This document shows, one piece after another, positions 22,944 to 26,318 of a stretch of 64,000 bases of DNA. Location of the stretch: positions 248,001-312,000 of the forward strand of contig JANSWU010000001.1 of the NCBI GenBank assembly GCA_024743315.1. The letters run 5' to 3'. How positions within the stretch are numbered: the first letter of the stretch is position 1; each line of letters begins with the position of its first letter. Source of the DNA: Hyphomonadaceae bacterium (GTDB lineage: Bacteria; Pseudomonadota; Alphaproteobacteria; Caulobacterales; Hyphomonadaceae). Both the position numbers and the translations under genes were made by a program. The notes under the pieces were generated by a model. That model was given only the letters and a program-made list of their open reading frames with translations. It was not told the DNA's origin and made no database searches.

Positions 22944-24287
22944 ATGAGCTGGTGGTTCAAGATTGATCTATGGAAACGCGTGATTGCCGCTCTGGTGCTC
23001 GGTCTCGCACTGGGCCTTGGGCTTCGCTATGGCATGGGCGCAGAGGCTGGAGGCGCGTTTGCCACCTCTTATATTAGTTGGGCTGGGGACCTCTTTCTGC
23101 GCCTGATCCGGATGCTGATCGTGCCGCTAATCTTCTTCACGCTGGTCTCTGGCATGATTGCGATGGGCGACCCGAAACGCTTGGGGAGCCTCGGTGTGCG
23201 CACGCTTGCCACCTATTTCGGCACCACAGCCATCGCCGTCACGCTAGGCCTGATTATGGCAACCATCTTTCAGCCCGGTGCCAGCCTGTCACCCGAAACC
23301 TTTGCCGGATCAGACGGCTCGTTCTTGGAAAGCGCCAAAGAGCGGGCCGATGCCGCAGGTGGCCTGGTCGATCGGCTCCTGCAAATCGTGCCGACCAATC
23401 CGGTCGAAGCGCTCGCCACCGGCAATATTCTACAGATCATCTTCTTTGCAATCATGTTTGGCGTCGGCATCCTGATGGCCGGCAAGATCGCAGAACCCGT
23501 CGCCAAATGGTTTGATGGGGCGTCCGAGGCGATGATGAAAGTCACCATCATCGTTATGGAAACAGCGCCGATCGGGGTCTTCGCCCTCATGGCGACGGTG
23601 ATGGCAACGCAAGGACTCGGCGTGCTGCAAAGTCTCGGAACGCTAACTGTGGCGCTTTATCTTGCCTGCGTGATCCACATCTTCGTCACCTATGGCGGCA
23701 TCATCATCAAAGGCGTCTTGCGCCTGCCCTTCATCCCGTTCCTGCGGGGCATCACGGATGCCCAGGCGGTGGCCTATTCGACCGCAAGTTCGTCGGCGAC
23801 CTTGCCGGTCACGATTACGTGCGCTGAAGAAAATCTCGGCATCGACAAGGCTGTCGCAGGGTCTGTGTTGCCACTCGGAGCGACGATAAATATGGACGGC
23901 ACGGCAATCTATATTGGCATGGTGGCGCTGTTCGGCGCTCAGGCCATGGGCATTGAAGTTACATTGACCCAGTATTTTCTCGTCGCGCTGATGGCGACGC
24001 TGGTGTCGATCGGTGCTGCAGGCATTCCGAGCGCTGGCCTGATCCTGTCCGGCGCGGCGCTCGCTCAGGTCGGCATTCCGGACGCGCAGGCCGCCTTGAT
24101 CATTGGCTTTATTCTACCGTTTGACCGCTTGCTCGACATGATGCGGACGCTGACCAATGTCACCGGCGATACCGCTGTCGCAACCGCGGTCGCCAAATGG
24201 GAAGGCGAGCTCGACGAAGATGTGTTCCGGGCGCGAGATAATCTGTCCGCGCATGTCGATGATCGCGAGAGACCGCTACCGACTTAA
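22944..24287 (+). CDS. Dicarboxylate/amino acid:cation symporter (DAACS family)
   Basis: A 447-residue glutamate/C4-dicarboxylate-type transporter (GltP/GltPh/DctA fold). It shows the HP1 serine-rich tip SSSATLP, the NMDGTAIYIGM motif of helix 7, and the helix 8 signature FDRLLDMMRTLTNVTGDT with the substrate-coordinating Asp and Asn. It imports an acidic amino acid or dicarboxylate with Na+ or H+. The Arg of the helix 8 motif (MMRT) is near the position that decides aspartate/glutamate versus neutral substrates. It is convergent with oxyR and overlaps it by 4 nt. Confidence 0.92.
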   Translation: MSWWFKIDLWKRVIAALVLGLALGLGLRYGMGAEAGGAFATSYISWAGDLFLRLIRMLIVPLIFFTLVSGMIAMGDPKRLGSLGVRTLATYFGTTAIAVTLGLIMATIFQPGASLSPETFAGSDGSFLESAKERADAAGGLVDRLLQIVPTNPVEALATGNILQIIFFAIMFGVGILMAGKIAEPVAKWFDGASEAMMKVTIIVMETAPIGVFALMATVMATQGLGVLQSLGTLTVALYLACVIHIFVTYGGIIIKGVLRLPFIPFLRGITDAQAVAYSTASSSATLPVTITCAEENLGIDKAVAGSVLPLGATINMDGTAIYIGMVALFGAQAMGIEVTLTQYFLVALMATLVSIGAAGIPSAGLILSGAALAQVGIPDAQAALIIGFILPFDRLLDMMRTLTNVTGDTAVATAVAKWEGELDEDVFRARDNLSAHVDDRERPLPT

Positions 24288-25177
24288 AGCGCGCTGCGAA
24301 CAATTTCGCCAATCATTTTGGCCTCGGCGGCACGCGGAGACCCCGTCCGCCAGGCAATCCCGATTCGGCGACCGATCATTGGCGTATCGAAGGCGCGCAA
24401 TTCGACATCCGCTCCCGACGTTACGCCAGCTTCAATCGCGAGGCGAGGGAGAAGCGATATGCCGAGGCCCCCCGCCACCATATGAACGAGCGTGGGCAGG
24501 CTGGTCGCCGTCACGTCGGCCCCACCTTTCTGCGACGGCAAGCGACAAATCGAAACCGCGTGATCCCGCAGGCAATGGCCATCCTCCAAGAGGAGCACGT
24601 CCTCCTCGATCAGATCTGACGACTTTAAAGCGCGTTTTTCGGTCAGGCTGTGCCCGGTCGGTGCAACCAATAGAAATTCATCATCCCCGAGTTCCATCGT
24701 CTCGATCCCGGTTGCTTCCCACGGCAAGGCAATCAATGCCGCATCAAGTTTTCGGGCGCGCAGGCCCTCGATCAAGCGATCGGTTTGATCTTCGCGTAGA
24801 TAGAGCTTGAGATTCGGATGCGCCGACCGCAACGCTTTCAGGGTCCGCGGCAATAGAAACGGTGCAATGGTCGGGATGGCACCCAGCCGAAATCCACCGG
24901 TCAACGGCGCGCCCGCCTGTTGCGCCGCAGCGACCAGATCTGCAGTGTCCGACAAGATGACCCTGGCGCGCTCGACTGCGGTTTCGCCCGCCTGAGTCAA
25001 AGACGCCCCGCGCGACTCGCGCTCGATCAATTGCACCCCTAATAGACCTTCAACCTCCTTGATCGCGGCAGACAAGGTGGGTTGTGTCACGTGACACGCC
25101 TCGGCGGCTTTCGAGAAAGAGCCATTATCGGCGACGGCGCAGAGAAATTCGAGCTGTCTCAGGGTCGGCAAATGCAT
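24284..25177 (-). CDS. oxyR: Hydrogen peroxide-inducible transcription regulator OxyR
   Basis: A 297-residue LysR-type regulator: winged HTH (residues 4-60, with NGSFSKAAEACHVTQPTLS) and a periplasmic-binding-protein-like sensor domain. The redox cysteines are present in LEDGHCLRDHAVSIC (Cys202 and Cys211), with the same 9-residue spacing as Cys199/Cys208 of E. coli OxyR, and TSLPTLVHMVAGGLGISLLP follows. It senses H2O2 by disulfide formation and activates peroxide defence. No catalase or AhpC gene is adjacent. The upstream side holds a -10 TATAAT and the sRNA candidate. Confidence 0.95.
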   Translation of the reverse strand: MHLPTLRQLEFLCAVADNGSFSKAAEACHVTQPTLSAAIKEVEGLLGVQLIERESRGASLTQAGETAVERARVILSDTADLVAAAQQAGAPLTGGFRLGAIPTIAPFLLPRTLKALRSAHPNLKLYLREDQTDRLIEGLRARKLDAALIALPWEATGIETMELGDDEFLLVAPTGHSLTEKRALKSSDLIEEDVLLLEDGHCLRDHAVSICRLPSQKGGADVTATSLPTLVHMVAGGLGISLLPRLAIEAGVTSGADVELRAFDTPMIGRRIGIAWRTGSPRAAEAKMIGEIVRSAL

Positions 25178-25210
25178 AGCCTCTATCTATCCTTGCAAGT
25201 CGAATTATCA

Positions 25211-25239
25211 ATTATACAAACCAGCTGCTCGAGCCTAAG
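25211..25239 (-). promoter_or_regulatory. Putative oxyR promoter
   Basis: A perfect TATAAT lies at 25216-25211 on the minus strand, with CTTAGG at 25239-25234 (17-nt spacer) as a weak -35. The start point would be about 27 nt before the oxyR ATG. OxyR commonly autoregulates, but I could not define an OxyR site confidently. Confidence 0.5.
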
Positions 25240-25347
25240 TTCACATTTAGTTGATTGGGTACGATAGAATATATCGCTTGAAACGACAGCGAATGACGCC
25301 ATCTCCCAATCATCGGGCGCGCAAAGTTTGCGGCTCTCGAAATCGCA

Positions 25348-25478
25348 CCGGTGGCAACCGATCCCCAATCCCTCATGCCACCGGACTGCGCGGTCCTGCC
25401 GGGCCCTTTCCTCCCCCCCTTTTTCAAGGTCATCCGGCAGGACCTTCGCGCCCCTCCGGCTGCTTCCGGACATTTTTT
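25348..25478 (+). ncRNA. Candidate small RNA with two C-rich loops and a terminator
   Basis: In the 348-bp gap between oxyR and the GNAT gene, three successive hairpins are visible. First, a 9-bp perfect stem (25348-25356 with 25376-25384) has a 19-nt loop containing UCCCC and UCCC. Second, an 11-bp perfect stem (25392-25402 with 25434-25444), extended by an inner CCTT/AAGG helix, presents a loop with UCCUCCCCCCC. Third, TCCGG-CTGCTT-CCGGA is followed by CATTTTTT, a rho-independent terminator on the + strand. C-rich loops can pair with Shine-Dalgarno regions, as in GsrN of Caulobacter and the CcsR/alpha-r families. The promoter is not identified with confidence; TAGAAT at 25265-25270 is one option. 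Confidence 0.65.
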
Positions 25479-25525
25479 GAAAATCTGTGAACGAGAATTG
25501 ACTTGCCAGCACACGCAGACCGCGC

Positions 25526-26128
25526 ATGTTAATGAGCATGGAATTGAACGGCCCAGGCCTTGAGAATGATCTCATCCATTTGGAACCCTTAGATGAGCGG
25601 TTCCGGGAATCCCTGCGCGCCAGCGATGCGGTCAATCAGATCTGGATCTCCTTGCCCGCGATTCAACGCGGGGCTGGCTTCGACGCTTATTATGATCATG
25701 TGCTCAAGCGCGCCGAGATTGACGAGCTATATGCCTTTGCCTTGCTCGATCCAAATGACCAGGACCGGTTTGTTGGCGTCACCGCCCTGCTCTATCCGAA
25801 CAAAATGCATCGCCGCGTGCGCATCGGGTATACATGGCTGGAACCGCATTTGCGCGGCCGCGGCGTCTATGCGGCGGTTCAGAAACTCTTGATCCAACGC
25901 GCGCTCGATTGGGGCGCCAAACGCATTGAATGGTATGTCGAGGATAGTAATGAGCGCGCCATCCGAGCGATCCAATCGCTGGGGGCGCAGAAAGAAGGCG
26001 TGCTGCGCGAATTTGAGAAATTTGCCGACGGAGAATGGGTCGATATCGCCGTCCTTTCCATGTTGCGCGACGAAGCCAAGGAAGCGGTTAGACGTCTCGA
26101 TCTGATCATGGCCGAGTCCGAGGCTTGA
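25526..26128 (+). CDS. GNAT family N-acetyltransferase (RimJ/RimL type)
   Basis: A 200-residue acetyltransferase. The acetyl-CoA pyrophosphate loop appears as YTWLEPHLRGRGVYAAVQKLL, and later RAIRAIQSLGAQKEGVLREFEKFADGEWVD matches the RimJ/RimL family C-terminus, where an N-terminal amine is acetylated. The substrate is unknown. There are several close ATGs (25526, 25532 and 25538) and no clear ribosome binding site, so the start is uncertain by a few codons. Confidence 0.85.
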   Translation: MLMSMELNGPGLENDLIHLEPLDERFRESLRASDAVNQIWISLPAIQRGAGFDAYYDHVLKRAEIDELYAFALLDPNDQDRFVGVTALLYPNKMHRRVRIGYTWLEPHLRGRGVYAAVQKLLIQRALDWGAKRIEWYVEDSNERAIRAIQSLGAQKEGVLREFEKFADGEWVDIAVLSMLRDEAKEAVRRLDLIMAESEA

Positions 26129-26191
26129 TTTTTATCCACACTCGTGCTTTACGCACGCCCTAATCACGCACTGGCAGACTGTGCGCGTTGA

Positions 26192-26245
26192 CCGGGACCA
26201 GAGCCCGGCGATGTCCCCCACTCGGCGAAGGCTCGCTCAGTGGGG
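26192..26245. other. Hairpins in the 190-bp leader before ffh
   Basis: The gap between the GNAT gene and ffh contains CCGGG-7 nt-CCCGG (26192-26208) and CCCCACT-16 nt-AGTGGGG (26216-26245). Neither is followed by a T run. I looked for the SRP RNA motif GGUCCGGAAGGAAGCAGCC and did not find it here. They may be leader structures of ffh or part of an unrecognised RNA. Confidence 0.4.
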
Positions 26246-26318
26246 CGCTACTGCTTTGTGTTCCCGTGATGAGCGCTTATCTTCTAATCCATAGGAGATC
26301 GGCAATAGGAGTGACGCG

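Follow-up and report, generated by a model that had tools for sequence, protein, structure and literature searches.

A stretch of 64,000 nucleotides of DNA from a member of the Hyphomonadaceae (hereafter the window) contains, between the divergent genes for OxyR and a GNAT acetyltransferase, what we consider rather probably an independent + strand gene for a trans-acting small RNA, the C-rich loops of which would pair with mRNAs. This reading draws on features of the sequence: the RNA structure and its strand bias, conservation and synteny, promoter-like elements and, in the source genome, a terminator-like element and an Hfq gene. The stand-alone non-coding gene would occupy ~25311-25478 (+) and give an RNA of ~165 nt in the source genome. 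A sigma70-like promoter of its own, CTTGAA-N16-CCATCT, would drive its transcription, which would end at an intrinsic terminator located 5' of a separate GNAT promoter. In the predicted fold of the RNA, a 5' hairpin of variable sequence precedes a conserved pair of hairpins with exposed C-rich loops; these loops may bind in trans to G-rich Shine-Dalgarno regions and reduce the translation of several mRNAs, with Hfq as a probable partner.

The probable RNA gene, its fold and its distribution

The gene order in this region is glutamate/dicarboxylate symporter gene, oxyR (-), RNA, GNAT (+), ffh. The best NCBIfam model for the oxyR open reading frame (24284..25177, - strand) is OxyR (226.9 bits, 3.3e-67; the cut-off of 329 is not reached), and its product carries the sequence HCLRDHAVSIC, which we take to be the redox-cysteine stretch. 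The GNAT gene (25526..26128, + strand), with homology from 25538, gave weak NCBIfam acetyltransferase matches. As the two genes are divergent and a terminator is located between them, the RNA would be a separate, third transcript. No conserved open reading frame was found in the oxyR-GNAT gap across 10 genomes, the longest ATG-started frames being 12-65 aa on the + strand and 17-96 aa on the - strand. The sequence TTGATA at 25206..25211 (-; identity of block 25205-25213, 0.93) is the likely oxyR -35, and TTGACTTGC at 25498..25506 (+; block identity 0.82) is likely the -35 region of a GNAT promoter.

Two further structured elements were seen in the window. The GNAT-ffh gap folds strongly at 26180-26300 (+; z -4.64), and the CCCCACT...AGTGGGG hairpin of this segment, for which Rfam holds nothing better than E 2, recurs 5' of ffh in G023, G027 and G005; a possible explanation is an ffh leader RNA. 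A ZMP/ZTP riboswitch is located at 1589-1676 (-; 59 bits, Rfam).

The + strand of 25348-25478 has a minimum free energy of -56.1 kcal/mol as opposed to -37.97 +/- 3.43 for dinucleotide shuffles (z -5.29), none of 200 of which was as good; read on the - strand, the same segment has a z of -3.95. Hairpin P1 (25344..25390, +; helix 25348-25384) consists of a 9-bp stem (25348-25356/25376-25384), a closing helix CGCA/TGCG and the loop CCGATCCCCAATCCCTC, where a 3-bp mini-helix, GAU/AUC, is predicted to flank CCCCA. Fold and alignment both support hairpin P2 (25388..25451, +), which has the second C-rich loop. Its core is a perfect 11-bp stem, GGTCCTGCCGG/CCGGCAGGACC (25392-25402/25434-25444), to which the fold adds one G-U pair, an outer 4-bp helix (GCGC/GCGC) and an inner one (CCUU/AAGG), leaving UCCUCCCCCCCUUUUUC unpaired at 25409-25425. 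Terminator hairpin P3 with its T6 run (25455..25478, +) is seen in this genome only: 5 bp at 25455-25470 are followed by CA and by TTTTTT at 25473-25478, and a terminator scan detected this combination independently (2 sites in 501 bases versus 0.6 expected). The first-pass annotation had described an unannotated sRNA with two C-rich loops, divergent from oxyR, with perfect stems of 9 and 11 bp and a terminator hairpin with six Ts. The + strand fold reproduces these elements, and the relatives and the match to the OxyR model agree with the placement. The terminator was confirmed in the source genome and was not seen in the nine relatives, the longest T-run of which is 2 to 4 within 34 bases 3' of P2; P2 is possibly the terminator stem in these genomes. 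The hairpins assigned to 25348-25478 likewise hold, while the proposed start at 25348 does not, since a 5' hairpin, P0, and the promoter-like hexamers lie 5' of it. P0 is predicted at 25313..25340 (+), with a sequence that differs between species. Its mean z is -2.54, and negative in 10/10 genomes, versus +0.67 and +0.10 for two control windows. It is weak in the source genome (z -1.25, p 0.12), and a fold of that genome begun at 25311 replaces it by a long-range helix.

Among relatives, 98.6% of the 220 stem cells in a 10-sequence alignment pair, a value that 0/500 shuffles reach; shifting the pairing partners along the alignment lowers pairing to 22-49%. Compensatory changes, which the first-pass annotation had suggested looking for, are indeed present: 7/22 stem pairs show two-sided changes (0/500 shuffles match this), 6 of the 7 in the divergent G005 and one in G007. 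Both shuffle statistics ignore kinship. The main stem of P2 has two-sided changes in 4/11 pairs with every cell paired, and the C-rich loop of P2 is absent in G001 (L070). Read as + strand RNA, the stem cells comprise 208 Watson-Crick, 9 G-U, 2 A-C and 1 other combination. An RNA from the - strand should show the opposite wobble bias, and the + strand is therefore favoured.

The promoter-like hexamers are a -35-like CTTGAA at 25277..25282 (+; identity 0.97) and a -10-like CCATCT at 25299..25304 (+; CCAT[C/T]T; block identity 0.75), separated by 16 variable bases with an identity of 0.30. The N16 spacing is kept in 9/10 genomes, eight of them identified by script and G028 on visual inspection, and deviates in G005. 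Conserved hexamers around a spacer that is fixed in length and variable in sequence point to a sigma70-type promoter. Further upstream, at ~-71 to -56 from the inferred start, lies a candidate activator site, TTCA-N8-TGAT (25240..25255; block identity 0.60), found as TTCA/ATCA-N8-TGAT in 9/10 genomes and absent in G005.

BLASTN of 25300-25520 against 61 genomes, its own included, gave matches at E <=3.2e-10 in 9/28 other genomes of the same genus, all of them between oxyR and GNAT, and a best E of 0.0068 outside the genus. A covariance model built from the 10 sequences (R1) was used to scan 299 genomes with stricter filters, at the cost of some weak matches. It recovered the same 10 genomes at E <=6.4e-17, with a single copy each, and the RNA is thus present in 10/29 same-genus genomes. 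The other 289 of the 299 gave only weak matches, in 29 genomes (best E 0.012); no strong match was found outside the genus, and the next best match within the source genome has an E of 0.18. The genus with the RNA is probably Henriciella. A search of genome contigs for the exact loop-1 pattern returned 7 matches (five Henriciella, one Hyphomonas, one Hyphomonadaceae), which probably are seven of the loci analysed here. In a tree of OxyR and Ffh, the RNA genomes fall into one group (support 96) that includes the RNA-less G022. The first-pass annotation had pointed to catalogued RNA families, and this was not borne out by Rfam: no family reached the gathering score for the RNA in searches of the window and the region, or for the loci of four of the nine relatives. 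A permissive search, up to E 10, gave only two matches, sR58 (E 0.89) and RT-12 (2.8); they lie on the - strand and look like chance. The RNA gene is best read, as far as sequence comparison goes, as a narrowly distributed one without an Rfam family.

OxyR, AhpC and the peroxide question

A predicted OxyR-type box, ATAG-N7-CTAT, which we take as the OxyR consensus, overlaps the oxyR start at 25176..25190, with a possible weak second half-site at 25198-25212. The NfiS paper describes OxyR sites as four tetranucleotides spaced at 7 bp and places katB under OxyR control (PMC6755748). At the oxyR start, the box matches at 8/8 positions in 9/10 RNA genomes and at 7/8 in G005. It is 8/8 in 6/6 genomes with ahpC beside oxyR and in 3/13 same-genus genomes with neither RNA nor ahpC; among the other ten of these 13, G008 carries a 7/8 match at a different position of the gap. 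Fisher tests of 16/16 versus 3/13 (p 1.4e-5) and, with 8/8 boxes only, of 15/16 (2.6e-4) are uncorrected for kinship. The exact palindrome occurs at 10 sites in the 3.31-Mb genome, and ~0.001 are expected per 350-bp gap. Together with the conserved palindrome at a position like that reported for a LysR-type activator 5' of NfeR1, the box in the gap makes OxyR the leading candidate regulator of the RNA, an assignment that we make tentatively.

The strongest rival reading, a narrower version of the favoured one, is that of an OxyS-like peroxide RNA, which has an appreciable chance of being correct without being the favoured one. OxyR bound to the box would repress oxyR and, when oxidised, activate the divergent RNA, either via an upstream -10 or distantly via the CTTGAA promoter. 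The distribution of the box fits this, being present in 10/10 RNA genomes (one 7/8), 6/6 ahpC genomes and 3/13 with neither. It also fits that ahpC, a classical OxyR target, occupies the position of the RNA in six sister species. AhpC is encoded by 6/29 same-genus genomes, 6/6 of which have the order oxyR, ahpC, a second gene (AhpD-like by eye), GNAT, ffh. An AhpC of this kind is absent, at E <=1e-20, from 10/10 RNA genomes, among which G010 is 87% and G026 84% complete. Against the OxyS-like reading, the box lies about 117-128 bp upstream of the likely RNA start (from the centre of the two half-sites or the box alone), and OxyR usually acts from closer by. Direct control would therefore probably need the weaker -10, CTAAGT at 25235..25240 (+), a possible OxyR-dependent promoter taken from the alignment; this weak candidate is poorly conserved (block 25232-25238, identity 0.56) and reads CTATGT or CTATAT in 7/10 genomes. 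Control windows over 25210-25296, between both candidate promoters, have no RNA structure. The function of the box may be limited to autoregulation of oxyR; the box is also present in G018, G022 and G027, as well as in the outgroup G036, with neither a strong RNA match nor ahpC. The RNA and ahpC genomes form two separate groups in the tree, so their mutual exclusion may be one event. Genome-wide, the box motif is not enriched (10 sites versus 22 for the reversed control), and the neighbours of the 10 exact sites, inspected by eye, include no evident antioxidant genes except oxyR. Evidence for a peroxide link is thus mixed; the box in the gap is a better reason to suspect one than neighbourhood alone.

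AhpC adjoins oxyR in 3/5 genomes of other families having a match, and this arrangement is therefore probably the older state. It is conceivable, albeit unlikely, that one Henriciella clade lost an OxyR-controlled ahpC operon beside oxyR and that a new RNA with C-rich loops arose at this position under the retained box, OxyS-like and of independent origin in Alphaproteobacteria. Krieger et al. in 2022 reportedly described a peroxide RNA that evolved from a peroxidase mRNA. Derivation of the present RNA from ahpC/ahpD received no support: the median p of 60 local alignments was 0.59, and four of them had the lowest values, 0-0.02, without correction. Six same-genus genomes (G002, G003, G013, G016, G017 and G020; L096, L091, L089, L088, L095 and L092) have neither AhpC nor a good box at the oxyR start, which suggests that oxyR control has been rewired in them. 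A literature survey, by titles and opening lines of abstracts, of oxyR-divergent or OxyR-controlled RNAs and of Hyphomonadaceae sRNAs showed none outside the enterics among the papers listed, which is not proof of absence.

Cis-acting alternatives and candidate targets

The RNA lies immediately 5' of GNAT on the same strand, with synteny in 10/10 genomes, and could be a cis-acting leader or attenuator of that gene. This is improbable: the -35-like TTGACTTGC intervenes and is also found 5' of GNAT in the RNA-less G012 (L094), where TTTGACTTGC precedes GNAT, the terminator stands 5' of TTGACTTGC in the source genome, and other same-genus genomes, e.g. G002, G003, G012 and G022, have oxyR-GNAT without the RNA. 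Two other readings, a DNA-level palindrome and a structured oxyR leader read from the - strand, would agree with the - strand z of -3.95 and are nevertheless most improbable in view of the conserved TTGATA that adjoins the oxyR start, the wobble count of 9 to 2 for the + strand and the T-run on that strand.

For the favoured trans-acting sRNA, pairing of the loops was compared between 64 start regions of 60 nt, i.e. those of 63 open reading frames of the window and of katG, and 1000 random window segments; the frame starts were picked mechanically, which makes the test a rough one. Loop 2 pairs better with the start regions (one-sided p 0.003); the better-conserved loop 1 does not (p 0.59, 64 regions). 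The gene with the best loop-1 energy, dctA, was not supported as a target: p values versus shuffles were 0.105-0.745 for loop 1 and 0.41-0.84 for loop 2 in the 8 RNA genomes that have a usable start, G007 (no start in the locus) and G005 (artefact row) being excluded. In the RNA-less G008, dctA gave a p of 0.005 versus shuffles. A search for complements of loop 1 in the 10 RNA genomes returned 4-23 matches per strand versus 0-4 for a backwards control, an excess that is probably an effect of base composition; nearly all among the matches listed carry 3 mismatches. The contexts of 30 loci gave 28 sites, 8 being the RNA itself and 20 others. L173 and L184 are similar, recurring sites, and L183 (G015) is located directly 5' of an ATG; no convincing conserved target was found among the matches listed for the 10 RNA genomes. 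By analogy with other small RNAs, base-pairing via the C-rich loops is likely.

Comparison with known small RNAs

The kinship to GsrN of Caulobacter that the first-pass annotation had proposed did not hold up, and this RNA is very unlikely to be a homologue of GsrN acting in the general stress response. The two share a C-rich loop for pairing and a 3' terminator (PMC5869019); the C-rich loop here is in the 5' part of the RNA, and a katG gene exists in the genome. Unlike GsrN, the RNA shows no EcfG-type promoter pattern: the motif GGAA[CT]-N15..18-[CG]GTT has no match on either strand of the 10 oxyR-GNAT gaps. Nor does it lie at a NepR locus, the two NepR-like matches being on other contigs (G000:C1:18259-18354 and G000:C7:410960-411055; the RNA is on C4). 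The latter point is not decisive, as gsrN of C. crescentus is itself described as distal from ecfG/nepR/phyR (PMC5869019). Pairing with katG appears weak at the start of the gene, where each loop gives -8.7 kcal/mol, less than the strength of the 64-region means of -12.7 and -11.3; a 170-nt katG stretch gives -15.7 and -13.9 kcal/mol, values that have no length-matched control. A scan for the EcfG pattern beside the NepR-like loci gave one match, in L188.

Filing the RNA with GsrN, alpha-r14, CcsR or OxyS was rejected in each case on at least one defining feature that was tested and not found. Rfam includes alpha-r14, and gave no match here. The alpha-r14 RNA NfeR1, one of the cuckoo RNAs of Rhizobiales, resembles the present RNA in its three serial hairpins, C-rich anti-Shine-Dalgarno loops, variable stem sequences and sigma70 promoter, and in the position of the candidate activator site, that for the LysR-type activator LsrB being at -72 to -57 (PMC10746234). 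It differs in that the site here is TTCA/ATCA-N8-TGAT and not TGCA-N6-GCAT, that P0 lacks a C-rich loop and that the locus is another one; the alpha-r14/cuckoo CCUCCUCCC is absent from 25311-25478. OxyS of enterobacteria is likewise located 5' of oxyR in the intergenic region and divergent from it, and its hairpin loops, including that of the terminator, are reported to contact a ribosome-binding site (PMC5793797). The RNA described here has no Rfam OxyS match, is from Alphaproteobacteria and is only putatively under OxyR control. CcsR RNAs carry C-rich loops and are, in this respect, comparable stress RNAs. An RpoHI/RpoHII promoter drives the joint transcription of four of them with a DUF1127 gene in Rhodobacter (PMC10253847), whereas here one single-copy RNA lies beside oxyR, and no DUF1127 was found among five neighbour proteins (OxyR, GNAT, symporter, Ffh and a glycosyltransferase-like protein).

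With this finding, the small RNAs with C-rich loops of Alphaproteobacteria gain a family that has no match in Rfam. If driven by OxyR, the RNA would be an independent case of an oxyR-divergent peroxide RNA (cf. OxyS), in a lineage without detected AhpC, and would make it possible to test how a regulator comes to control an RNA in place of a protein. With 10 genomes that have the RNA, 6 that have ahpC and 13 that have neither, a single genus offers a practical comparison.
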